Source: a virus. From it: a stretch of 20,379 nt of DNA. The stretch spans positions 1 through 20,379 of IMG/VR virus record IMGVR_UViG_3300009154_000359; one strand, given 5' to 3'. The translations under genes and the position numbers were made by a program. Below are positions 7,123 to 16,700 of this stretch, piece by piece; the stretch's first letter is position 1; each line of letters begins with the position of its first letter. The notes below the pieces were generated by a model. The model saw nothing but the letters and a program-made list of their open reading frames with translations, searched no databases and was not told the origin of the DNA.

Positions 7123-7137
7123 CCGGTACCGTACCGG
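7123..7137. repeat. 15-bp perfect palindrome
   Basis: CCGGTAC-C-GTACCGG has perfect 7-bp arms around one central base. It abuts the first tandem repeat. It could be an operator or part of a terminase nicking site; nothing in the sequence decides this. Confidence 0.65.
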
Positions 7138-7229
7138 AGCGAAGTCGGTCGATTTTTGAAACCCCTCCGGCGCGAAGTCGGTCGATTTTTTACAGTCTTT
7201 CCGGCGCGCGAAGACGATTTTTTTTTTCC
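7134..7229 (+). repeat. Three tandem repeats of about 33 bp
   Basis: Units start at 7134, 7167 and 7201, each with CCGG. Units 1 and 2 share the identical 19-base core GCGAAGTCGGTCGATTTTT (7139-7157 and 7172-7190). Unit 3 is diverged (GCGAAGACGATTTTT at 7208 onward, with a longer T-run and closing TTCC). The GTCGATTTTT end resembles one half of the 29-bp dyad element found in the rightward block. Confidence 0.75.
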
Positions 7230-7332: not shown

Positions 7333-7361
7333 GGAATTATCGTCATTCTGTCGATTGTTCC
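7333..7361 (+). repeat. 29-bp dyad element, copy 1
   Basis: This copy follows the plan GGAA-n3-6-n3-6-n3-TTCC with halves TCGTCA and TGTCGA around TTC. It ends 36 bases before the ATG at 7398. It shares its last 18 bases with copy 3 (CATTCTGTCGATTGTTCC). Confidence 0.8.
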
Positions 7362-7397
7362 TGCGCAGTATGCGCGACCTTTATTGGAGAATTGATC

Positions 7398-8075
7398 ATG
7401 GCAAATCAAGCCACTATGCCTGCTCAGGCTCAAGAGCAAACGGTGCAGTCCGCGGTCGCGGTTGTCGTCAACATGATCGGCGGCCGTCCAGCTGTCGAGT
7501 TGCAGGAAACAATCTTCACCATTGGTGAAGAAACCTTCGATGCTGAGGCGCTGATGGCGCGCGGCGTTGCGGCGCGTGACGTGTTGGATTCGAACCTACA
7601 CGATATCGTTAAGGGTATCCCTTACCTTGAATTCATGTTGGTGCGTGACTTTTACAAGTCGGGCATCACTGATAAGGGTAAGTCGGATGACGCGGCGCAA
7701 AAAGTGTGGGAGCGCAGTGTCAACCGGATGGTGTCGACCTTTGACTTCGTGAAGCCTAAGTCGGAAGCCAAAGACGCGGTGCGCAAAGCTGAAGCGAAAG
7801 CCAAGGCGATCGCGGCGTTCGAAGCTCAGGATGATGACGCGCTAGAAGACGCGCGTGCCGACCTGCTGGAGAAAGGCGATCAAGCCTCACTTCGTAAGGC
7901 GCTGACGATCGGCAAAGAACTCGAGCGGCGTAATGCTGACGTGATCAAAGCTGACGCTGATCAACGCAAGCTGATCGTTTCCAAGATCGTGACTCGCGTC
8001 AAGGAATTGAGCAAAGCGGGCACGGATGACGCTGACAACTTGTTGGCCTCGGTGCTTATGATGCTGGGAGCATAA
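7398..8075 (+). CDS. Unknown early protein, 225 aa
   Basis: This is the first rightward gene. GGAGA (7386-7390) lies 7 bases before the ATG at 7398, which is preferred over an in-frame TTG at 7392. I do not recognise the family. The N-terminus (1-25) is Ala/Gln rich. A central region includes GIPYLEFMLVRDFYKSGITD. Residues about 120-200 are highly charged and Ala/Lys/Glu-rich, with strong helix and coiled-coil character (EAKDAVRKAEAKAKAIAAFE). The gene is more GC-rich than its neighbours and has about eight GATC sites, roughly three times the chance expectation. First position after a control region and a dyad copy suggests an abundant early product; function unknown. Confidence 0.85.
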   Translation: MANQATMPAQAQEQTVQSAVAVVVNMIGGRPAVELQETIFTIGEETFDAEALMARGVAARDVLDSNLHDIVKGIPYLEFMLVRDFYKSGITDKGKSDDAAQKVWERSVNRMVSTFDFVKPKSEAKDAVRKAEAKAKAIAAFEAQDDDALEDARADLLEKGDQASLRKALTIGKELERRNADVIKADADQRKLIVSKIVTRVKELSKAGTDDADNLLASVLMMLGA

Positions 8076-8077
8076 CC

Positions 8078-8275
8078 ATGGCGGGCGCGGACATTCATGC
8101 CGTGCCCGCCTACGGGCGGGACTACAAATCTGCGTCTGCCGTTAAGGCGGACTGGGCGGCTGGAAAAGATTTCCGGTGCTACCTTACAGGGCGTTATCTG
8201 AGCGCCCGCGATAATCTGGAAAATCAAATCTGGGTTCGCTACTCCAACCTTCGCAAGATCGTTCGGGTTTCGTAG
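8078..8275 (+). CDS. Small conserved-looking protein, 65 aa
   Basis: The ATG lies 2 bases after the stop of the preceding gene, with GGGAG inside the end of that gene, so the two are almost certainly co-translated. The core VPAYGRDYKSASAVKADWAAGKDF (given here as two adjoining parts, VPAYGRDYKS and ASAVKADWAAGKDF), followed by an Arg-rich beta-like tail (IWVRYSNLRKIVRVS), matches a pattern I have met in small phage and plasmid proteins of unknown function. There is no membrane segment or cysteine motif. A strong intrinsic terminator follows directly, so this gene closes the first rightward transcription unit. Confidence 0.8.
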   Translation: MAGADIHAVPAYGRDYKSASAVKADWAAGKDFRCYLTGRYLSARDNLENQIWVRYSNLRKIVRVS

Positions 8276-8281
8276 TAACAC

Positions 8282-8306
8282 GGGGGCTTCGGCCCCCATT
8301 TTTTTT
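8282..8306 (+). terminator. Intrinsic terminator after the first rightward operon
   Basis: The stem GGGGGC/GCCCCC with a stable TTCG tetraloop is followed by A and eight T. It starts 6 bases after the stop codon at 8275. This is a textbook rho-independent terminator. Confidence 0.95.
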
Positions 8307-8465
8307 GGCCCAAAATTTCCTGCGCGGTTCCCCACGGAGCCGCGCCCGCGATGCCCGTTCCTAGCAACGGTGTAGTCCGTCTGTGCGTGGCGGGCGGTGT
8401 TCCGCATGGCATTGCGCTGTTATCTTGCTATGCCAGTTCCGATAGCAACGGGCGAGGCCCGCCGT

Positions 8466-8494
8466 GGAATTGTCGACATTTCGACGATTTTTCC
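8466..8494 (+). repeat. 29-bp dyad element, copy 2
   Basis: The GGAA and TTCC ends have the standard spacing, with inner halves TCGACA and a diverged CGACGA. It is the only copy without a start codon nearby: the next gene is 683 bases downstream. Confidence 0.65.
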
Positions 8495-8660
8495 GCGCTG
8501 GTAGAGAGGCAACGCCTCGCCAAGTGCGAGATAAGTTAAGCGGGCGTGGCTTACCCTATTCCATAGAATATTTGTACGCTTCAAACCCTGGCCAATAAAA
8601 CACGGCGGGCTTGGCTGTTACGCACACAATCGTCTTCCAGAAACGTTCTAGCCCCCATAG

Positions 8661-8750
8661 TTTTGTAAGATACGTTACTTTGAAAAAAGTGCCTCTTTTT
8701 TAGGCATTTTGGACCCCTATTTCTTACATAATGGCACGTATCTTACAAAA
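8661..8750. repeat. 15-bp perfect inverted repeat around a hairpin
   Basis: TTTTGTAAGATACGT (8661-8675) is repeated perfectly in inverse at 8736-8750. The 60 bases between contain a smaller hairpin, TGCCT-CTTTTTT-AGGCA followed by TTTT (about 8690-8710), so the RNA could form a long nested stem. TCTTACAAAA from the right arm recurs at 9069-9078 and 9872-9881. Confidence 0.8.
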
Positions 8751-9010
8751 AGAATGAGACCCAAAAGCCCGCTAAGTCCTTGATTTTATTAGCTTCTTCT
8801 TCTATTCTATTTAGTTTTATAATATTAGTAAATCGGATTTTAAAAAATTGGGGTTAGAGAGAGAGCCGTTTCTTTTTTGGTCTTAAAATTTTTGGCTGAG
8901 AATAGGATGATCGCCAAAAAGCAAAAATTTTTTTCCTCTCACTGGTAAACCCTGTTTTTCATTTAAACTCGGTTACGGTATCTTATTTAACTCCGAACCC
9001 CTTGATTTCA

Positions 9011-9038
9011 TTGACTTTTTCCCAAAGTTTGATAAGAT
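9011..9038 (+). promoter_or_regulatory. Predicted sigma70 promoter before the HNH-like gene
   Basis: TTGACT (9011-9016), 16 bases, then TAAGAT (9033-9038). The -35 shares TTGACTTT with two other promoters in this window. Transcription would start near 9045, giving a leader of about 130 bases that contains dyad copy 3 and the right arm of the long inverted repeat. Confidence 0.4.
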
Positions 9039-9100
9039 ATCGAGCGGGTTATGTAATAAATCGACGTTTCTTACAAAACCCCAAAACGCCACTTTCGTCC

Positions 9101-9129
9101 GGATTAAACGACATTCTGTCGATTGTTCC
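9101..9129 (+). repeat. 29-bp dyad element, copy 3
   Basis: The left half is diverged (GGAT, ACGACA) while the right half TGTCGA-TTG-TTCC is perfect. It lies 47 bases before the ATG at 9177. Confidence 0.75.
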
Positions 9130-9176
9130 GTTTCCATCAACCTATTCTCAGCCGAAATTTTTAATTAGGAGTCCAC

Positions 9177-9935
9177 ATGGCCCGCCCCATAAAGTACAAC
9201 AACGCCGATGACCTCATCGCTAACACCACCCAAATAAACGACTGCCTCGTGTGGCGCAGCCAAGGCGGGACTTGCCCCGTCCTGTCCCCCGCGTCTGTCA
9301 TGGCCCGCATGTTCATGACCACGTCCATCGCACGTATCATGTTCACCATCTGCCGCTACATCCCAGCGAGCAAGAAACTCATCCGCTGCTGCGACAACGA
9401 CTACTGCATCAATCCCTTCCATTTCGTCGAGTCGGGCAAGATACGCCGAACTCGGTATCGCCTGTCACGCCCGCTGACTAACATCACCAAAAGGGGCTAC
9501 CTGAAAATACGTGTCGTGCCCATTGCTACGCCGACCAGTCTTTTGCCCGACCAAGAAAAGACCCGCCATCTGATTGCACCAACAGACGCCGAGATCAAAG
9601 CGCTACGCCCGCAAGACCCTGAACTTCTCCATATGCTTGCAAACGCTGCCGCCCAAGCGGGCTTTGATGGCGAGGGCGTTCTAGACAAGAACTCTCGCTA
9701 CATTCCCAAGAAACGTGTTCGTCGTCCGATGGAGCCGACCCCCGACAAGCCCGTCCTGACCGTCAAACTTGCGAGGCCCGTTCCTGACCCCAAGCGCGAA
9801 GATGTAACGCTTGATGACATACTCAGCGACGCATGGTTAGATAAGATTGAGGAGCGCAGACGTGAGAGGTCTCTTACAAAACTATCGCGTATTCCAGAGT
9901 GGGACAAGCCCCCTAAAACGCGGAATGCCACTTGA
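9177..9935 (+). CDS. Degenerate HNH-like/zinc-binding protein, 252 aa
   Basis: The ATG at 9177 follows AGGAG (9167-9171) with a 5-base spacer. Residues about 18-84 resemble an HNH_3-type nuclease domain: NDCLVWRS at the start and RCCDNDYCINPFHFVE (70-85) at the end, matching the family pattern C-x-N-x-x-C-x-NP-x-H. The usual HR and DH histidines before this are not in place, so catalysis may be lost and the domain may only bind zinc and DNA. Residues about 140-252 are Pro/Arg-rich and appear disordered, with a helix containing DDILSDAWLDKIEERRRE. It could be a free-standing homing-type endonuclease remnant or a DNA-binding regulator. It is the first gene after the large non-coding region, and a promoter starts at its end. 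Confidence 0.7.
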   Translation: MARPIKYNNADDLIANTTQINDCLVWRSQGGTCPVLSPASVMARMFMTTSIARIMFTICRYIPASKKLIRCCDNDYCINPFHFVESGKIRRTRYRLSRPLTNITKRGYLKIRVVPIATPTSLLPDQEKTRHLIAPTDAEIKALRPQDPELLHMLANAAAQAGFDGEGVLDKNSRYIPKKRVRRPMEPTPDKPVLTVKLARPVPDPKREDVTLDDILSDAWLDKIEERRRERSLTKLSRIPEWDKPPKTRNAT

Positions 9936-9960
9936 CTTTGTCAAACAAGTGTGGTACAAT
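9927..9960 (+). promoter_or_regulatory. Strong predicted sigma70 promoter
   Basis: TTGACT (9932-9937), 17 bases, then TACAAT (9955-9960). The -35 lies in a 16-base block, GCCACTTGACTTTGTC (9927-9942), that is repeated exactly at the second strong promoter (16668-16683). It overlaps the end of the HNH-like gene and drives the small ORF/AAA+ cluster. Confidence 0.75.
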
Positions 9961-9976
9961 GTACTTTAGTACATTG
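9957..9976. promoter_or_regulatory. 20-bp palindromic operator candidate overlapping a promoter
   Basis: CAATGTACTTTAGTACATTG has perfect 9-bp arms around TT. It overlaps the -10 box and the expected start site near 9967. A protein bound here would block transcription, so a repressor operator is the natural reading. Confidence 0.65.
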
Positions 9977-10015
9977 AGGCAAGCGAGGCGCAAGTACTAG
10001 GTTCCTTGGGGCGCG

Positions 10016-10044
10016 GGAATCGTCGACATGGTGTCGATGTTTCC
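10016..10044 (+). repeat. 29-bp dyad element, copy 4
   Basis: GGAA-n3-TCGACA-TGG-TGTCGA-n3-TTCC is intact. It lies in the leader of the transcript from the promoter at 9932, about 50 bases after its start, and 37 bases before the ATG at 10082. Confidence 0.85.
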
Positions 10045-10081
10045 CCCCAAGGTTTTGTTTCCCATCTATTTGGAGTACCTT

Positions 10082-10300
10082 ATGACCACTATGACCCGCG
10101 ACGATGCACAGCACGTCCTCGACACCTGCCACAGCGAGACAATGGAGTGCATACAAATGTATGCATCCGGTCTCATCACCCTCCCCGAGATGGTCAATCA
10201 TCTCATCCTCGTCAAGCGTGTCTACATTTCCGTCATCAGCACCGACGGCGTATTCGACCCCGCAACGGGCTTATCTCCCCTTTCTCTCCAAGGAGCCTAA
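10082..10300 (+). CDS. Small unknown protein, 72 aa
   Basis: GGAG (10072-10075) lies 6 bases before this ATG. An upstream in-frame ATG at 10028 falls inside the dyad element and has no ribosome site, so 10082 is chosen. The protein reads MTTMTRDDAQHVLDTCHSE and then METIQ-like helical sequence through LPEMVNHLILVKRVYISVIS. It is predicted helical and soluble. I do not recognise the family. It is the first gene of the cluster driven by the promoter at 9932, with AGGAG for the next gene inside its 3' end. Confidence 0.75.
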   Translation: MTTMTRDDAQHVLDTCHSETMECIQMYASGLITLPEMVNHLILVKRVYISVISTDGVFDPATGLSPLSLQGA

Positions 10301-10301
10301 C

Positions 10302-10469
10302 ATGACCGCCCAGCACAACAAAAACCGTTTCGAACCCGAAGTCAAGGCGCCTACTCTCGATGAGTGGCTTGCGTGGGCAGACGAGCACAGCTATGACACC
10401 GAGTGGGTCTACAACCTCACCGCCGAGCAGCGCGTATGGCTTGCTGAACAGGCACAATTCGATGAGTAA
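10302..10469 (+). CDS. Small acidic protein, 55 aa
   Basis: The ATG at 10302 follows AGGAG (10291-10295) by 6 bases and lies 1 base after the preceding stop. A longer frame starting at 10104 is only the translated shadow of the previous gene. The protein is acidic and Trp-rich (LDEWLAWADEHSYDTEWVYN, then LTAEQRVWLAEQ), consistent with a compact helical fold. No family is recognised. Its end overlaps the zinc-ribbon gene by 8 bases. Confidence 0.75.
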   Translation: MTAQHNKNRFEPEVKAPTLDEWLAWADEHSYDTEWVYNLTAEQRVWLAEQAQFDE

Positions 10470-10731
10470 TTACCATTCTACAGAATACGATGACGAAGAT
10501 ACCTTGTCGTCATCAACTACTTATTGCCGCATTTGCAGCGGCGAAGTGCATCACGCACGTTCGGTACTTGGCTACCGAGTGTGCATGAAGTGCGGTGATC
10601 GCCTTGCCCGCGATGAGCGGGCGGGGTGGTGCATCGTGCAAACGTACGGCAAGGGGCCGTACCAATTCGTTACCCGCGAGGCCGCACCCAAGGTTCTCAT
10701 GGATACGAATCAGAAATCCCCGCGTTCGTAA
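10462..10731 (+). CDS. Small zinc-ribbon protein, 89 aa
   Basis: The ATG overlaps the previous stop (ATGAGTAA), implying translational coupling; no strong ribosome site is visible. Two CxxC pairs, CRIC (22-25) and CMKC (41-44), with aromatic and glycine residues between, form a typical zinc ribbon or knuckle. The N-terminal 20 residues are acidic and Ser/Thr-rich. The C-terminal segment GWCIVQTYGKGPYQFVTRE may be a short beta unit. Such small zinc ribbons often bind nucleic acid or proteins; which applies here is unknown. It ends 3 bases before dyad copy 5. Confidence 0.78.
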   Translation: MSNYHSTEYDDEDTLSSSTTYCRICSGEVHHARSVLGYRVCMKCGDRLARDERAGWCIVQTYGKGPYQFVTREAAPKVLMDTNQKSPRS

Positions 10732-10734
10732 CTC

Positions 10735-10763
10735 GGAACGATCGACACGGTGTCGATCTTTCC
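10735..10763 (+). repeat. 29-bp dyad element, copy 5 (most symmetric)
   Basis: The 13-base arms match in 12 of 13 positions around CGG, including GATCGACA/TGTCGATC. It fills the gap between the zinc-ribbon stop and the AAA+ gene, 32 bases before the ATG at 10796. Confidence 0.9.
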
Positions 10764-10795
10764 TTTCTTTGTTTATTCTTTATATAGGACTCATC

Positions 10796-11875
10796 ATGGC
10801 AGAAGTAAAATTTAACCGTCGCACCATCAATTTCAGCGAAACGGTTGACCTCATCCTCAACAGCGGGCACAACTGCGTGCATCTCGAAGGCGAGCCCGGC
10901 GTTGGCAAGACTGCAATCCACGACACCATCGTGGCCAAGACAGGATACCGCAAGGTGTACATCGACGGCCCGAACACCGACGTGGGCCAAGCGGGCATGC
11001 CCATCCCCAACCACGGCACGCGTACCTTGGACTTCTACCCTGCCGACTACTTTGGTCTGCATATCGACGAGCCCAAGATCATCATGATCGACGAGTGGAC
11101 GAAGACCGAGGACTACGTGAAGAACACGCTACATCCTATGCTGCACGAGCGGCGTATGGGTACGCAGAAGCTACACCCGCTGGATATCATCTTCACCACC
11201 GGCAACCAAACGAGGGACGGCGTGGGCGACTCGGCCAAGTCTCATACACGTAATCGCCAGACATGGGTCACGTACATGAAGCCGACTGCTGACGAGTGGT
11301 TGATCTGGGCGGGCAACAACGGCATAGCTGCCGAGGTTATGGCATGGGTTACCGAGTATCCGCATTGCATGGCTAGCTACATGGACGGTGGTCAGAAGGA
11401 GAATCCGTACATCTTCAACCCCGAAGACGCATCACAGACTGCGTACGTCTCTCCGCGCTCGCTTGCCAAGGCATCGCATTGGGTCAACGTACGTGACCGC
11501 ATCACGGAGAACGCATTGGTTGCCGCTCTTGACGGGACAATAGGTCACTCCGCGTCTCGTGATTTGCAAGCATACGTCTCGCTTGCGGATCAGCTCCCTT
11601 CCCGCGAGTCCATACTCAACCAGCCTGATAACGCATTGGTTCCTGCCAGCCCTGCTGCGCAATGCATCTTGTTGTTCAAAGCTGTGCAAGCATCGCAGCG
11701 CGATACGTTTGGTACGTGGATGCGCTACGTCCGTCGCTTCCCCAAAGAAGGCCAAGCCTTGTTCGTCAACAACTTGTTGGAGAACGAGGCCAAGAAAGAT
11801 TGGGCCATTGTGCACCCCTCATTCGTCACATGGGCGCGTGAGAACCAGTACATGTTCGCTGGCCTCAAGGGCTAG
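10796..11875 (+). CDS. MoxR-type AAA+ ATPase
   Basis: This 359-residue ATPase starts at ATG 10796, with AGGA 6 bases upstream; an upstream frame to 10595 overlaps the zinc-ribbon gene and is not real. Walker A is GEPGVGKT (32-39), Walker B is IIMIDE (95-100), and a sensor-1-like Asn lies in FTTGNQ (133-138). The DGPNTDVGQAGMPIPN region (57-72) is where MoxR/CobS-type ATPases carry their family insert. MoxR ATPases act with VWA-domain partners to remodel protein complexes, as CobS does with CobT in cobalt chelation. The VWA gene lies just downstream, and a DUF3150-like gene follows, matching that partnership. The target in the phage is unknown. Confidence 0.9.
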   Translation: MAEVKFNRRTINFSETVDLILNSGHNCVHLEGEPGVGKTAIHDTIVAKTGYRKVYIDGPNTDVGQAGMPIPNHGTRTLDFYPADYFGLHIDEPKIIMIDEWTKTEDYVKNTLHPMLHERRMGTQKLHPLDIIFTTGNQTRDGVGDSAKSHTRNRQTWVTYMKPTADEWLIWAGNNGIAAEVMAWVTEYPHCMASYMDGGQKENPYIFNPEDASQTAYVSPRSLAKASHWVNVRDRITENALVAALDGTIGHSASRDLQAYVSLADQLPSRESILNQPDNALVPASPAAQCILLFKAVQASQRDTFGTWMRYVRRFPKEGQALFVNNLLENEAKKDWAIVHPSFVTWARENQYMFAGLKG

Positions 11876-11903
11876 GAACAATCGTCAACTTGTCGATAAA
11901 TCC
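11875..11903 (+). repeat. 29-bp dyad element, copy 6
   Basis: Its first G is the last base of the ATPase stop codon (TAG-GAA). Halves are TCGTCA and TGTCGA, and the right end is ATCC rather than TTCC. It lies 13 bases before the ATG at 11917. Confidence 0.75.
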
Positions 11904-11916
11904 AAGGAAAAATTAA

Positions 11917-12102
11917 ATGACTCAACAAACTGTATGCGATGTCATCATCGGCATCACCGGTGTTTTATTCATAGCCATCGGGTTCTCAAATTTTAGTGGC
12001 CTGCCCAACCTAGACAAGTTCACCTTGGTCTGGGGTGGGATGTGCATTGGCTATATCGTGACTACATATTTAAACAAGGAAGAAGATGATGATCAAGTCT
12101 AA
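11917..12102 (+). CDS. Small two-helix membrane protein, 61 aa
   Basis: AAGGA (11904-11908) lies 8 bases before the ATG. Two hydrophobic segments (about 8-25 and 35-52) are joined by a short loop containing LPNLDKF, and the C-terminus is acidic (KEEDDDQ). This is an inner-membrane hairpin protein of unknown function. It lies between the ATPase and the VWA gene and overlaps the latter by up to 17 bases, so it is co-translated with the pair and could anchor them at the membrane. That role is inference. Confidence 0.75.
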   Translation: MTQQTVCDVIIGITGVLFIAIGFSNFSGLPNLDKFTLVWGGMCIGYIVTTYLNKEEDDDQV

Positions 12103-13363
12103 ATTGCCCGCTGAGAAGCGGCTGGAGTTAGTGCACGTATCGTTGATGCGTGACGACAGGTTCAAGGCATACGTCGGTCTGTTCATGGTGGGCAAGACCG
12201 AGGTGGTCGAAGACCCGATCACGGCCTGCACCAACGGGCGTGACGCTAAGTACGGGCGTGGATTCGTGGACGAGTTGACTGACAAAGAGCTAGCCTTTCT
12301 TGTCATGCACGAGAACATGCACAAAGCCTACCGCCACATGACTACGTGGCGGGCGTTGTGGGATACGAATCGCATGGCCGCGAATATGGCGTGTGATCAC
12401 GTCATCAACTTGCAATTGGTTGACATGGACCCCAACGAGTCCATGATTGCCTTCCCGCGTGACAAGGACACGAACAAGCGCTTTGGTGTTTACGACGAGC
12501 GCTTCAAGGGTATGGACAGCAAGCAAGTGTTCGACATCTTGGTCAAAGAGAACAAGGACAAACCCAAGCGGGGCAACGGTAAGCCCGACGATGGAAAAGG
12601 CGACAGCGGTGTCGAAGATTCCGAAGCAGGCGATGACAGCGGTGACGGTGACGGCGGCCTTGACCAGCATGACTGGAAGGGCGCGAAGGACATGGACGCC
12701 GAAGAACGCAAGCAGCTGGAGCGCGATATCGAGCAAGCCATACGCCAAGGCGGTATCTACGCGGGCAAGACGGGCGCGAACATGCCCCGCGAGTTGTCCG
12801 AGTTGCTCAAGCCGAAAGTTGTGTGGCGCGAGGTGTTGCAGCGGTTCACCAAGATGCACTTGCGTAATCGGGAGAGCCCGTCATGGCGCAAGGCGCATCG
12901 TAACTTTCTGTGGCAGGACATGATCTTGCCTTCCATCGTAGGTAAACGGATGAAACACTTGGCGATAGGCATCGACACATCAGGTTCCGTGGTGGGCCCG
13001 TTGCTCGACGCGTTCCTGTCTGAGTTGAACAAGATATGCCAAGACATGATGCCCGAGCGTATCGACGTTATGTATTGGGATACACAGGTGTGTCAGCACG
13101 AGGTGTTCAAAGGTTCGGACAGCACCAACATCGTGCATCGCACTAGCCCCAAAGGCGGTGGTGGTACTAACCCCGACTGCATTGTCGAGTTCATGCACAA
13201 GAAACACATCAACCCTGATGCTCTTGTGATTCTGTCGGATGGGCATATGCATAGTGATCCGGCAGCTTGGGCACGTATGAAAGCGCCGACCCTGTGGTGC
13301 ATCATCGGTAATGATTCGTACGTTCCCCCGTACGGGCAACTCGTCAATGTGAAGGAGGTGTGA
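12086..13363 (+). CDS. VWA-domain protein with metallopeptidase-like N-terminus
   Basis: This 425-residue protein has an N-terminal domain with a zinc-metallopeptidase-like HENMH (75-79, the HExxH pattern), as in the DUF2201 family. A low-complexity acidic and glycine-rich linker (about 158-195) follows. The C-terminal VWA domain (about 290-420) has a complete-looking MIDAS: DTSGS (297-301), Thr in GGGGTNPD (357-364) and an Asp in LSDG (384-386). MoxR ATPases and VWA proteins form chaperone-like pairs, so this is the probable partner of the ATPase at 10796. AAGGA at 12076-12080 serves ATG 12086, or ATG 12089, which also fits. Confidence 0.88.
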   Translation: MMIKSKLPAEKRLELVHVSLMRDDRFKAYVGLFMVGKTEVVEDPITACTNGRDAKYGRGFVDELTDKELAFLVMHENMHKAYRHMTTWRALWDTNRMAANMACDHVINLQLVDMDPNESMIAFPRDKDTNKRFGVYDERFKGMDSKQVFDILVKENKDKPKRGNGKPDDGKGDSGVEDSEAGDDSGDGDGGLDQHDWKGAKDMDAEERKQLERDIEQAIRQGGIYAGKTGANMPRELSELLKPKVVWREVLQRFTKMHLRNRESPSWRKAHRNFLWQDMILPSIVGKRMKHLAIGIDTSGSVVGPLLDAFLSELNKICQDMMPERIDVMYWDTQVCQHEVFKGSDSTNIVHRTSPKGGGGTNPDCIVEFMHKKHINPDALVILSDGHMHSDPAAWARMKAPTLWCIIGNDSYVPPYGQLVNVKEV

Positions 13364-13364
13364 G

Positions 13365-13583
13365 ATGGAAGTATTGCTACACATAGGCGACAAGTCTTTC
13401 TTCCTTGAGCTAGAGGAAGCAATGAAGGTGTCCGAGATACTGTGCGCTGCGCAGTACTTGGGTACGTCGTGGCTGGGCTCGCGCAATGTTGCTGCCCGCA
13501 GGCAACCGGACGCTAAGTCTGCGAGTGTTGCGCCGGTAACGGCGTACTTGTTACTGGAGCTGGAACAGGGGGAAAAGAAATGA
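13365..13583 (+). CDS. Small unknown protein, 72 aa
   Basis: The ATG lies just after the VWA stop, with GGAGG (13354-13358) inside that gene's end. The sequence begins MEVLLHIGDKSFFLELEEAM and then KVSEILCAAQYLGTSW, reading as beta-strand then helix. It ends in LLLELEQGEKK. No family is recognised. It overlaps the next gene by 4 bases (ATGA), so it is part of a coupled string from the VWA gene to 14754. Confidence 0.75.
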   Translation: MEVLLHIGDKSFFLELEEAMKVSEILCAAQYLGTSWLGSRNVAARRQPDAKSASVAPVTAYLLLELEQGEKK

Positions 13584-13738
13584 AAGAATCTGCGTACATG
13601 GTCAACTTGAACCGTGAAACATTCGAGCTGCTCCAACAGGTGCAACAAGAACTATCTACTGACCTAGGGTTTGAACCAACCAACGGTCAGGTTATCCGTC
13701 ATTTAATTTCGATTTATTTCAAAGGAACATTAGCATGA
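13580..13738 (+). CDS. Ribbon-helix-helix-like small regulator, 52 aa
   Basis: This short gene has GGGGGAA before its ATG, a 4-base ATGA overlap with the preceding gene, and another with the following gene (ATGA 13735-13738). The layout fits a ribbon-helix-helix fold: a short strand (MVNLN, 7-11), a first helix (RETFELLQQVQQELSTDLG, 12-30), a turn with Asn-Gly (35-36), then a second helix (QVIRHLISIYF). RHH proteins such as Arc and MetJ dimerise and insert the strand into DNA. The sequence is divergent and short, so RHH is a structural guess. It is a candidate binder of the 29-bp dyads. Confidence 0.7.
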   Translation: MKESAYMVNLNRETFELLQQVQQELSTDLGFEPTNGQVIRHLISIYFKGTLA

Positions 13739-14754
13739 GTTACTACAACACATATGGCGTAATGCGTATGGACAGCTTTGCCGAGGTGAAGAAGTGGTAC
13801 GAACGGGTAATCCCTATTCGCGGGAATGCGGACAAGGTCAAGCCCTTGGGCAACCGCAGGTACCACTTCGCGGCGAACATCACCATGCCTGATGCCGACA
13901 CCGTCGATCTTAATTACTGCGGCGCACCGCTGGTGAGGTGGAAACCGGACAATACGTTTACCGTGTTTTCCACAAAATACGCCAACGCTTACGGGCCAGA
14001 CAACATGACTCCGTACTTGCCAAGGGGTTGTTTCTTCTCGTGGAACTCGGGTCGGATGTTTATTAACCTACCCGGCAACAAGACCTATCTGATGGACCTC
14101 AATCAAGAGATGCGGTTTCAGATGGTCGAGGGAAAAGTCTTTATGTTGAACAAACCAGTAGCTTATTCGTACAGGATTAAGCGAGCGCCATTGGCTAAAG
14201 TCATGAAAGAGTACCAGCCTTTCCTTGACTGGTTACAGGTTGTGCTTGCTGTGTCACATCCTATGAACAACGACGAACTTAATATGCCGTATTCGTTGTT
14301 TGTGGAGCAAGCGGGCGTGAAGCACAAAGAGTACTACAACACCCTTGTCACGAACGCAAGCAAAGAGACAGAGAACAGGCGAACGCGTATCTACTCGGAA
14401 AGCAATCAATGGCTTGGCCTACCGTTTTCGAAGCGGGGCAATGGTTCTGCTGCCAAGGGTTTCCATAAGCCAACCTCCGAGTTGCTACACGAGTGGGTAG
14501 TGGACACGAGTGCGGTTAACTGGGCACAAGCTATGTACGTCATAGCCAAACAGGCTGCTGAGTCTAGGTACAGCCACAGCTATAGTTCCGCGTATATACG
14601 TACGCTCAAGGTAGATCATGCCAAAGACTACTTACGTGACCTTGCGATATTCCTGAACAGGGACGAGGTAATTGAGAAGATGCGTCTGGAAGATGGTGAA
14701 GCGCCGTCAAAGCGCAACACTAATTTCTTTACCGAGATCAGTTTTGTCTTATAG
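13735..14754 (+). CDS. Unknown conserved-looking phage protein, 339 aa
   Basis: The ATG overlaps the small upstream gene by 4 bases (ATGA), and AAAGGA lies upstream. It is a soluble protein rich in Tyr, Trp and Asn. Segments such as RRYHFAANITMPDAD, WKPDNTFTVFSTKYAN and GRMFINLPGNKTYLMDL suggest a beta-rich N-terminal half, while about 200-330 is helical. I see no catalytic motif and do not recognise a family. It lies within the ATPase/VWA gene set and ends with dyad copy 7, whose first base is the last base of the stop codon. A role with that module is inferred from co-location only. Confidence 0.85.
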   Translation: MSYYNTYGVMRMDSFAEVKKWYERVIPIRGNADKVKPLGNRRYHFAANITMPDADTVDLNYCGAPLVRWKPDNTFTVFSTKYANAYGPDNMTPYLPRGCFFSWNSGRMFINLPGNKTYLMDLNQEMRFQMVEGKVFMLNKPVAYSYRIKRAPLAKVMKEYQPFLDWLQVVLAVSHPMNNDELNMPYSLFVEQAGVKHKEYYNTLVTNASKETENRRTRIYSESNQWLGLPFSKRGNGSAAKGFHKPTSELLHEWVVDTSAVNWAQAMYVIAKQAAESRYSHSYSSAYIRTLKVDHAKDYLRDLAIFLNRDEVIEKMRLEDGEAPSKRNTNFFTEISFVL

Positions 14755-14782
14755 GAATCTTCGACATAGTGTCGATAGTTCC
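14754..14782 (+). repeat. 29-bp dyad element, copy 7
   Basis: TCGACA-TAG-TGTCGA is intact, with GGAA/TTCC ends. The first G is the end of the upstream TAG stop, as in copy 6. It lies 21 bases before the ATG at 14804. Confidence 0.88.
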
Positions 14783-14803
14783 ACTAACCTTTTGGAGAAT
14801 ACC

Positions 14804-15670
14804 ATGCTAGAGAATACAGTTGTTTCCCTTTCCTCGATGGCCATGCTTGTCGAGTTACGTATCAGTACTTGGACCGCTCGCAAGCGTGACAACGAGACTT
14901 CCGTCGATATCAACAACTCCAAAGAAGCATCGCAAGACGCGTCTTCGGTTTACAAATACTTGATGGCGGGCAGTGATCATCTTGACAAGATCGTCAAGTA
15001 CTCGGCCAAGGCCCGTGCGTGGCACGGTACGCAGACCCTGCCTTGGATGAAGGGTGTGTCCTTGCTTCCGATGGAGAACTTCTTTAAGTACCGCGAACAA
15101 CTGGGTACGATGGAAGCAAACTTCTACGCGCTGGTGGATGACTTTGTGCTTGCGTACCCAAAGCTTGTGAACGACCAAGCATTCAAGCTGGGTAAGTATT
15201 ACCGTGCTGATGAATTCCCCGATGCGGAGACTTTGCCGCGTAGGTTTAAGTTTGAGTACCACTTTCTCCCTGTTCCAGAGAAGGGGGACTTCCGCGTCAA
15301 TTGCGAGGCGCGGTTACGGTCTGACCTCGAAGAACAGTACGAGAAGATGTACACGACCAAGTTGGCCGAGGCCATGCGTGACCCATGGGATAGGTTGCAT
15401 GACTTGCTTGGCCGCATGTCCGAGCGCCTGAGTGACAAAGAAGACGGGAAACGCAAGATATTTCGTGACTCCATCATCACCAATGCAACGGAGATGTGCG
15501 ACTTGCTGACTAGGCTGAACATAACCAAAGACCCAGCGCTAGAGAAAGCGAGACGCATGCTTGAGCAATCCATCAACGGGTTTGACCCCAAGGACTTGCG
15601 TGATAGCAGCGGTGCACGCTTGGAGTTGAAGACAAGCGTCGAAGATATCCTCAGCAAATTTAACTGGTAA
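14804..15670 (+). CDS. DUF3150-like protein, 288 aa
   Basis: GGAG (14794-14797) is 6 bases before the ATG; the longer frame to 14672 overlaps the previous gene and the dyad and is rejected. The N-terminal LVELRISTWTARKRD (about 15-29), a following VYKYLMAG helix and the TLPW (about 82-85) segment resemble DUF3150 proteins, which are repeatedly found beside MoxR ATPases and VWA proteins in phages and bacteria. The rest is helical and charged with an MxPWDRLHDLLGRM-type segment near 190-205. The role of DUF3150 is unknown, but it is expected to be the third partner of the ATPase/VWA module. The family call is from memory of its sequence style, so moderate. Confidence 0.72.
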   Translation: MLENTVVSLSSMAMLVELRISTWTARKRDNETSVDINNSKEASQDASSVYKYLMAGSDHLDKIVKYSAKARAWHGTQTLPWMKGVSLLPMENFFKYREQLGTMEANFYALVDDFVLAYPKLVNDQAFKLGKYYRADEFPDAETLPRRFKFEYHFLPVPEKGDFRVNCEARLRSDLEEQYEKMYTTKLAEAMRDPWDRLHDLLGRMSERLSDKEDGKRKIFRDSIITNATEMCDLLTRLNITKDPALEKARRMLEQSINGFDPKDLRDSSGARLELKTSVEDILSKFNW

Positions 15671-15681
15671 GGAGAAAACAC

Positions 15682-16560
15682 ATGAGCAAATTGGCAAACA
15701 TAAAGATGGTAGAGAACTACGTGCTAGACCCTAGCTTTGAAGAACTTATACATACGCTGGCCCTGCGTCATCCGTTGTATACATTCGGAACTAAAGGCAT
15801 AAAGCCTGACGACCTAGAGTGGATTAGCGGCAAAGCGCCTAAGTTTAAGATGAGACCCGAAGACACCCCTAACGAGACGCGGTTCGTTTCGTATCTGAAG
15901 GTGTACTCAGGAGCCGAAGAGTTGGGCATTATAGCTATGGACGCCGCTTACGTAGATGGCAAACGCATACCAAAATATAAGTTGGACTGTTGGCGGTTGG
16001 GGGAAAGGGAAAACTCCAAAACGTCGTCTATTAAAACGACAAAGCTTAACGTAGCATTACGTACGTTCAAGAAATTCTTTATACCACGGGCGATGCTTGA
16101 GTTGTATGAGAACGCGAAAGTTGAATTGGATAATAACTTTCGTAGCTGTTTGCGCCTGTTGCAGCGGCCCATAGATCATGGTCAGCTATCGCCTAACTCG
16201 GTAAGTATGGAACGATACGCATATCTAACGATAAACAATCTGGCCATGGACCCCGATCTGCATAAACTTATGACGCAATCATTCTGTTCTGAGAAATATG
16301 CTGTAGCCATGTCCAAGTACATGCTTGCCAAAACTATGGAGAACATGGACGCTCATGTTGTAATAGCATACAACGAGGGTTACTTGTACTGGAACAAAAC
16401 AGAAGACGAAGTAGGTGAACTGCAACATCTGGCGTACGAGGATATGCCCGAGCCATTGAAGAACAACCTTGCTGTACTACAGCTATGTAAGGACAACGAA
16501 CTTGTTCGAGACGTGGGCTATAGGTGCCGCTCAGACTTGTTCCTAGTGATACCAGCGTAA
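15682..16560 (+). CDS. Unknown phage protein, 292 aa
   Basis: AAGGAG lies upstream of the ATG, 11 bases after the previous stop. It is a soluble, mixed alpha/beta protein. The N-terminal part has LALRHPLYTFGTKGIKPDD, a middle part DAAYVDGKRIPKYKLDC, and a helical part with TFKKFFIPRAMLELYENAK. No catalytic motif is obvious and I do not recognise the family. It is the last gene before a strong terminator, so it closes the ATPase/VWA transcription unit. Confidence 0.85.
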   Translation: MSKLANIKMVENYVLDPSFEELIHTLALRHPLYTFGTKGIKPDDLEWISGKAPKFKMRPEDTPNETRFVSYLKVYSGAEELGIIAMDAAYVDGKRIPKYKLDCWRLGERENSKTSSIKTTKLNVALRTFKKFFIPRAMLELYENAKVELDNNFRSCLRLLQRPIDHGQLSPNSVSMERYAYLTINNLAMDPDLHKLMTQSFCSEKYAVAMSKYMLAKTMENMDAHVVIAYNEGYLYWNKTEDEVGELQHLAYEDMPEPLKNNLAVLQLCKDNELVRDVGYRCRSDLFLVIPA

Positions 16561-16573
16561 CCAGTAAGTGAAG

Positions 16574-16600
16574 AGACCCGCCTAGTGCGGGTCTTTTTTT
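16574..16600 (+). terminator. Intrinsic terminator closing the ATPase/VWA unit
   Basis: An 8-bp stem AGACCCGC/GCGGGTCT with a CTAGT loop runs into a T-run to 16600. It begins 14 bases after the stop codon at 16560. Strong and unambiguous. Confidence 0.93.
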
Positions 16601-16604
16601 GTCC

Positions 16605-16633
16605 GGAATTTTCGACAGCTTGTCGATGTTTCC
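16605..16633 (+). repeat. 29-bp dyad element, copy 8
   Basis: TCGACA-GCT-TGTCGA with GGAA/TTCC ends. It lies just after the terminator and about 40 bases upstream of the -35 box at 16673, so here it precedes the promoter rather than lying in the leader. Confidence 0.88.
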
Positions 16634-16667: not shown

Positions 16668-16700
16668 GCCACTTGACTTTGTCTAGTAGAGTGCTATATT
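16668..16700 (+). promoter_or_regulatory. Predicted sigma70 promoter of the nuclease/polymerase unit
   Basis: TTGACT (16673-16678), 16 bases, then TATATT (16695-16700). The block GCCACTTGACTTTGTC (16668-16683) is identical to that at 9927-9942. The expected start site is about 16707, which is the A of the next ATG, so the mRNA may be leaderless. Confidence 0.72.

Follow-up and report, generated by a model that had tools for sequence, protein, structure and literature searches.

The 20,379-bp IMG/VR virus record IMGVR_UViG_3300009154_000359, hereafter the window, carries terminase and portal genes running leftward and replication genes running rightward; eight copies of a 29-bp inverted repeat (dyad) are spaced along the rightward block. 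These dyads are almost certainly real and functional at the level of DNA, and with the same near certainty they have been recoded in place between lineages, related phages carrying dyads of different sequence in the same slots. Covariation across relatives makes the product of the first rightward gene very probably the protein that binds them. As a whole, we lean towards an explanation in which this protein acts on distributed operators as an autoregulated brake, co-diversifying with its sites between lineages. The initial annotation, which had been made from the window, missed both this recoding between lineages and the likely binder.

That annotation had placed eight copies, each exactly 29 bp, at the positions below, and all were recovered when the window was re-read (S7 is a slot missing from the window).

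7333 to 7361, no strand: dyad S1, in the first rightward gene's leader (the candidate regulator), same place in relatives; one mismatch
8466 to 8494, no strand: dyad S2, past the first gene block and ahead of 9177; two mismatches
9101 to 9129, no strand: dyad S3, with the ATG at 9177 lying 47 bp downstream; two mismatches
10016 to 10044, no strand: dyad S4, past 9935, with the ATG at 10082 lying 37 bp downstream
10735 to 10763, no strand: dyad S5, in the AAA ATPase leader, a slot conserved more than any other among relatives
11875 to 11903, no strand: dyad S6, sharing the last base of the AAA stop codon, with the ATG at 11917 lying 13 bp downstream; two mismatches
14754 to 14782, no strand: dyad S8, ahead of the DUF3150 gene at 14804
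16605 to 16633, no strand: dyad S9, starting 4 bp past an intrinsic terminator, with the VRR-NUC promoter lying downstream

The proposed fixed-position pattern held overall, with departures at two fixed positions in each of the copies at 8466, 9101 and 11875 and at one in the copy at 7333, and the conserved core proved slightly longer than claimed (also T at 5, R at 7, Y at 23 and A at 25). When the 20 fixed positions were scored, the window gave eight matches at two or fewer mismatches; in 300 dinucleotide shuffles 0 matches were expected at three or fewer mismatches and 0.6 at six or fewer, and a reversed-pattern control returned 0 matches in the window. Seven of the eight copies end 13-73 bp ahead of a start codon and the leftward block contains zero matches, both as first described. 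The further claim that the copies are always intergenic is true within this window; relatives have a further copy within the VWA gene.

An exact pattern search of IMG/VR found 40 loci on 31 contigs, 30 of which encode relatives of window genes; a contig with a single exact match and no window-related gene (G024, L036:872-900) likely represents chance or a fragment. Mismatch counts were cleanly bimodal, with 0-4 in genuine copies and at least 5 in the background. The 128-bp terminal repeat of one contig, G001, marks it as complete, with a genome size near 64.6 kb. All eight of its copies fall within 48,381-57,658 (9.3 kb), and the motif is absent from the remainder of the genome. In close relatives the motif is kept in the same gaps, and about 30 contigs of the clade have it in orthologous slots: ahead of the first gene, in gaps among the first genes, on either side of the AAA gene, and ahead of the DUF3150 and VRR nuclease genes; no copies occur in the clade past the polymerase gene. 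The consensus of 118 distinct copies, GGAATNRTCGACA-N3-TGTCGAYNATTCC, is near-symmetric with its information confined to 29 bp, and the flanks of these copies show no conservation, hence no directional flank.

Beyond this clade the slots persist and the sequence within them changes. De novo dyad finding at 159 relative loci recovered a dyad family in 134, although some families consist of only three copies and a small number of AT-rich families could be artefacts. Relatives have their own dyad sets with other half-sites in the same slots, for example GGACAaAGTGTCA, GGACAaacTGACAT, GGACAaacCCGTG and GACAaaCTTAG. Most families share an outer frame, (g)GACAa/tTGTC(c), and what varies among them is the inner half-site (including AGTGTCA, acTGACAT, AGTtACA, CTTAG, acCCGTG, ACTTtCA, aaTGAGcA, AATAAG, and TCGACA with a 4-bp spacer); a deeper group has a short dyad, CCTAACA-n-TGTTAGG. 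In G033, whose polymerase is 57% identical, the window motif is absent and nine copies of GGACnnAGTGkCA-N3-TGmCACTnnGTCC are present. The replacement is reciprocal: each of four large records has 8-10 copies of the GTGTCA type and 0 of the TCGACA type.

The clearest view of this recoding comes from a slot that lies within a gene.

12086 to 13363, plus strand: VWA-domain gene, whose acidic linker houses dyad S7 in relatives; S7 is missing from the window

In eleven contigs of the clade, an extra copy in the acidic linker forms an in-frame insertion reading GNDRQ-(G/D)V-DGS; it is absent from the window and from the distant relative G033. In more distant lineages, each lineage's own dyad occupies almost identical alignment columns (202-218), with matching changes in the encoded peptide (GQTSNTKVCP, GQNEESSECL, SDKTAPHGNV and others). 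The site has been recoded in place, its alignment position held, in at least 11 lineages. What is kept at S7 is the DNA site, not the peptide; a DNA site within a gene overrides the peptide that it encodes. Matches inside coding sequence, which the initial annotation had named as grounds for doubting its motif, thus do occur, as a recoded regulatory site.

The protein whose sequence follows the motif is encoded by the first rightward gene.

7398 to 8075, plus strand: candidate dyad-binding protein (g7392), 225 aa, all-helical, family unknown; residues 97-115 form a putative recognition helix

Motif similarity was compared with protein identity by partial Mantel tests across 42 dereplicated loci, with AAA-ATPase identity held fixed. 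The first gene gave r = 0.66 and partial r = 0.56 (0/300 permutations); up to two paralogs were allowed per genome, and a rerun with a single copy gave 0.50. Partial r for the zinc-ribbon protein, g13735, VWA, DUF3150, g15682 and VRR ranged from -0.20 to 0.05. The ribbon-helix-helix (RHH) protein and the small terminase fell from 0.32 to 0.09 and from 0.34 to 0.11, respectively, once the first gene was added, and the first gene held at 0.52-0.57 when either was included. A sliding window peaked at the helix SDDAAQKVWERSVNRM (partial 0.61). At similar AAA identity (0.75 vs 0.72), 62% of the helix was shared in same-motif pairs and 21% in different-motif pairs. By eye there is an apparent code: W-x-R helices accompany half-sites ending in ACA, and other residues accompany GAA, GAGcA and CTTAG. 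Mantel tests remove shared ancestry incompletely, and the covariation, though strong, is for that reason not conclusive.

AlphaFold2 predicted the 225-aa protein as all-helical (predicted local distance difference test score, pLDDT, 90.8; predicted template modelling score, pTM, 0.51) with helices at 76-92 and 97-115; a long helix at 162-207 could serve in dimerisation. The family had no match in Pfam, PHROG or PDB sequences, the model had no fold match in PDB or BFVD, and a tblastn search with a relative's version against 50,697 phage records returned no match.

In genomes with two paralogs of this protein (L234, L238, L226, L227, L256, L207, L239 and L213), the recognition helices are alike and fit the same dyad type. 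Phages with the short dyad CCTAACA/TGTTAGG (L318, L331, L306, L257 and L324) encode a different protein of 162-187 aa, first after the small terminase, with a similar NPSxVWxxVR stretch; it is a lead towards a possible analogue or distant homologue.

The placement of the sites relative to genes and promoters suggests how they might work. Across 548 distinct dyads, 44% lie 0-40 bp ahead of a start codon (7% for random positions), and the centre falls within an open reading frame of at least 90 aa in 18% (68% for random positions). Strong sigma-70 promoters whose -10 element lies at -80 to -40 from the dyad centre numbered 67 in 425 dereplicated windows against 3.9 expected, and such promoters were depleted at -40 to -15. 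Many of these dyad-linked promoters are near perfect, e.g. TTGACA-17-TATACT. The usual order is as follows: promoter, leader of about 30-45 nt, dyad, about 24 bp with a Shine-Dalgarno sequence, and start codon. The Shine-Dalgarno is present in the gap for 92% of dyads located 8-45 bp ahead of a start, and a -10 hexamer seldom separates the dyad from the start codon (1.7% in its strong form). S9 is an exception to the order: the terminator is followed by the dyad and then by the promoter of the VRR gene. The relevant signals in the window, promoters being assigned by consensus match only and the terminator read from the sequence, are these.

9011 to 9038, plus strand: sigma-70-like promoter TTGACT-16-TAAGAT upstream of S3 (dyad at about +70)
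9932 to 9960, plus strand: sigma-70-like promoter TTGACT-17-TACAAT with TG, upstream of S4 (dyad at about +63)
16575 to 16600, plus strand: intrinsic terminator GACCCGC-CTAGT-GCGGGTC-T7, just before S9
16673 to 16700, plus strand: sigma-70-like promoter TTGACT-16-TATATT with TG, downstream of S9 and leading into the VRR-NUC gene (16707)

The total number of promoters within the window was no higher than in shuffles, and the promoter evidence is therefore the positional enrichment across relatives.

What the analysis shows is where the dyads lie, that their placement is syntenic, that they are recoded and that they covary with the first-gene product; a mechanism can be proposed around these observations. 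The dyads would be operators for one phage-encoded protein, the first-gene product, which probably binds as a dimer with a recognition helix in each half-site. Host RNA polymerase would start at the near-consensus sigma-70 promoters found some 40-80 bp ahead of many dyads. Bound protein would then occupy the transcribed leader, or else positions between or within the genes that share those transcription units, where it may block initiation clearance or elongation in the manner of a stoperator. Judged from this geometry, repression or a roadblock is its fairly probable action. The dyad in the first gene's own leader would imply autoregulation, and build-up of the protein would shut down or balance the early and replication operons. 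Specificity would drift among lineages, with the helix and all 7-10 sites changing together, and relatives would therefore not cross-regulate.

Several points weigh against this proposal. Binding, dimerisation, repression and timing are all steps that we infer, and the term recognition helix rests on covariation and a helical prediction, since no known DNA-binding fold was matched. Some genomes encode the candidate regulator as a pair of paralogs. For only about 16% of dereplicated dyads did the -90 to -35 interval contain a strong promoter; the others would have to act by roadblock and not as promoter operators. The palindrome lacks an orientation, unlike known stoperators, which function in a single orientation (PMC9283540). 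Finally, the need for repression is not obvious, because no lysogeny module was detected: searches for integrase, resolvase and ParA (PF00589, PF00239 and PF13614) found none in nine large contigs, including the complete genome, with positive controls detected. Lysogeny is thus unsupported, other routes to it being possible, and the lifestyle is probably lytic.

Of the alternatives, the one that survives best keeps the same protein and sites and reverses the sign, the protein being an antiterminator or activator that, like Q, would load on host RNA polymerase at the dyads and take transcription through the early block. The position of dyads at about +26 to +60 from predicted starts, the location of S9 after a terminator and upstream of a promoter, and an enrichment of downstream promoters at +60 to +80 (15 vs 1.9) would all suit such a protein. 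To our knowledge, however, Q-like proteins require a site only at the promoter, whereas many dyads here have no nearby promoter and one lies inside a gene; these internal sites fit less well than do the leader position and S9. We regard positive action as unlikely.

The sites are mostly transcribed, directly upstream of a Shine-Dalgarno, and in many lineages could form a 13-bp stem with a triloop; the dyads might thus work at the RNA level, folding into hairpins within mRNA leaders that either recruit an RNA-binding protein of the phage or serve as substrates for a processing nuclease. The details of the repeat speak for DNA. In the window clade the outer triplets formed 100 Watson-Crick pairs against 134 expected if the two sides were independent. 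There is no wobble preference, since mismatches at conserved positions across all lineages comprised 65 G/T and 83 A/C; in the window clade only, G/T exceeds A/C (16 vs 7 in the core), which we take as a mild asymmetry between the left and right halves rather than as pairing. The central triplet, the would-be loop, is the most variable part of the dyad, Rfam had no match to the elements, and S9 sits upstream of its own gene's promoter. The preference of the initial annotation for a two-fold protein on DNA is borne out by the unpaired triplets, the lack of wobble excess, the variable loop and the unconserved flanks, and an RNA element seems improbable.

A promoter for a phage RNA polymerase was considered and rejected, there being no flank conservation in the 118 copies; among the largest open reading frames scanned in the complete genome (large genes only), no phage-encoded RNA polymerase was found.

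Marginally less probable than an RNA element is a role in organising, segregating or replicating the phage genome, as a centromere or initiator would. The sites do cluster in the replication half at about one per kilobase; the concentration just before start codons (44% vs 7% random), the strong promoter coupling and the lack of a detected ParA all speak against it.

A different protein was weighed as the binder and demoted.

13580 to 13738, plus strand: 52-aa RHH-like protein

The RHH fold fits symmetric operators, and the protein showed a weak motif correlation (0.32). Its gene is missing from many dyad-bearing lineages (L131, L135, L144 and others), an identical beta strand accompanies different half-sites, and the correlation drops to 0.09 given the first gene. 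It is neither universal nor the carrier of an independent motif signal, and to prefer it over the first-gene product would be hard to justify. Lastly, a mobile palindromic repeat (REP- or RPE-like) spreading by repeated insertion, for which the in-frame copy within a gene might be cited, is very improbable given the fixed slots, low copy number and complete recoding at the same positions in relatives.

Operators with two-fold symmetry, co-evolving specificity and autoregulation are features of lambda cI and P22 C2, whose operators are confined to one or two control regions. The dyad system resembles theirs in those three respects, with its sites instead spread through the early block. In phage N15, several inverted repeats across the genome bind one phage protein, SopB, which needs SopA/ParA; the likeness is in the dispersed inverted repeats for one protein, and here no ParA was found.

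The closest working analogue is the stoperator system of cluster A mycobacteriophages (L5/Bxb1), where many Rep sites lie in short gaps of transcribed genes, some at promoters (PMC6550527, PMC9283540), and where site motif and repressor diverge together between lineages (PMC6550527). Here too, many copies of one site occupy short gaps of transcribed regions and the motif co-varies with a phage protein, for which a repressor role is proposed. Cluster A stoperators are 13 bp, asymmetric, monomer-bound and active in one orientation only (PMC9283540). They number 20-30 per genome in a temperate phage group and are oriented with transcription, whereas the sites described here are palindromes of 27-29 bp, numbering 7-10 per genome, in the early block only and with no detected integrase. 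Cluster A Rep has a helix-turn-helix and a second DNA-binding domain, unlike the candidate, which lacks a Pfam, PHROG or fold match. With sites so different and proteins unrelated, the dyad system is not a member of the cluster A type. In cluster K mycobacteriophages, the SAS/ESAS element is a repeated inverted repeat just before the starts of orthologous genes, of unknown function; ESAS consists of imperfect 17-bp repeats whose spacers vary and which are attached to a start-associated sequence, and its binder is unnamed (PMC3203893). The likeness extends to start-codon position only, spacing here being fixed within a lineage and a candidate binder available. The initial annotation's remark that it knew of no described regulon with this motif is supported.

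An uncharacterised, widespread freshwater phage family thereby gains a concrete regulatory system and a named candidate regulator, and its dozens of co-evolved protein-DNA pairs constitute a natural data set for reading a recognition code. If these phages are truly lytic, operator and regulator specificity diversifies without lysogeny, and the question becomes what drives it, e.g. interference between co-infecting relatives. More speculatively, a previously undescribed family of helical DNA-binding proteins may run a distributed roadblock network in obligately lytic phages, its specificity diversified across the family in the way that lysogeny immunity diversifies, with private control codes for co-infecting phages, heteroimmunity without lysogeny and a readable helix-to-half-site code; we hold this fuller picture as tentative.

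Megablast found no close cultured relative. The nearest sequenced relatives by TerL are DSL-LC04 (57%), 023Pt_psg01 (54%) and HTVC027P (54%), and a search for dyad families in MinM2, HTVC027P, 023Pt_psg01, DSL-LC04 and KPP25 (50 kb examined) gave nothing convincing above composition noise. A search for a prophage form in bacterial genomes gave three leads, of which the only long one, L339, has just the VRR-polymerase pair and no dyads; on this Dehalococcoidia chromosome (a metagenome-assembled genome; L339:9699-11845), the VRR nuclease and polymerase are 54% identical to those of the window, and the regulator is also lacking. The complete relative G001 encodes a 2,462-aa virion-type protein (L052:8337-15725) with an LPD39 domain and a DarB-like C-terminus.

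Within the window, a 29-nt inverted repeat (8883-8911 and 9136-9164; 90% complementary, 224 nt apart) surrounds S3 and is unrelated in sequence to the dyad. At the divergent junction (7134-7190), two 24-bp direct repeats are 96% identical, with starts 33 bp apart. A small zinc-ribbon protein (10462-10731, plus strand), possibly a regulator that binds RNA polymerase, is kept in 140 relative loci. The conserved AAA ATPase, VWA and DUF3150 genes form a block at 10796-15670, and relatives of the VWA protein occur in many N4-like phages.

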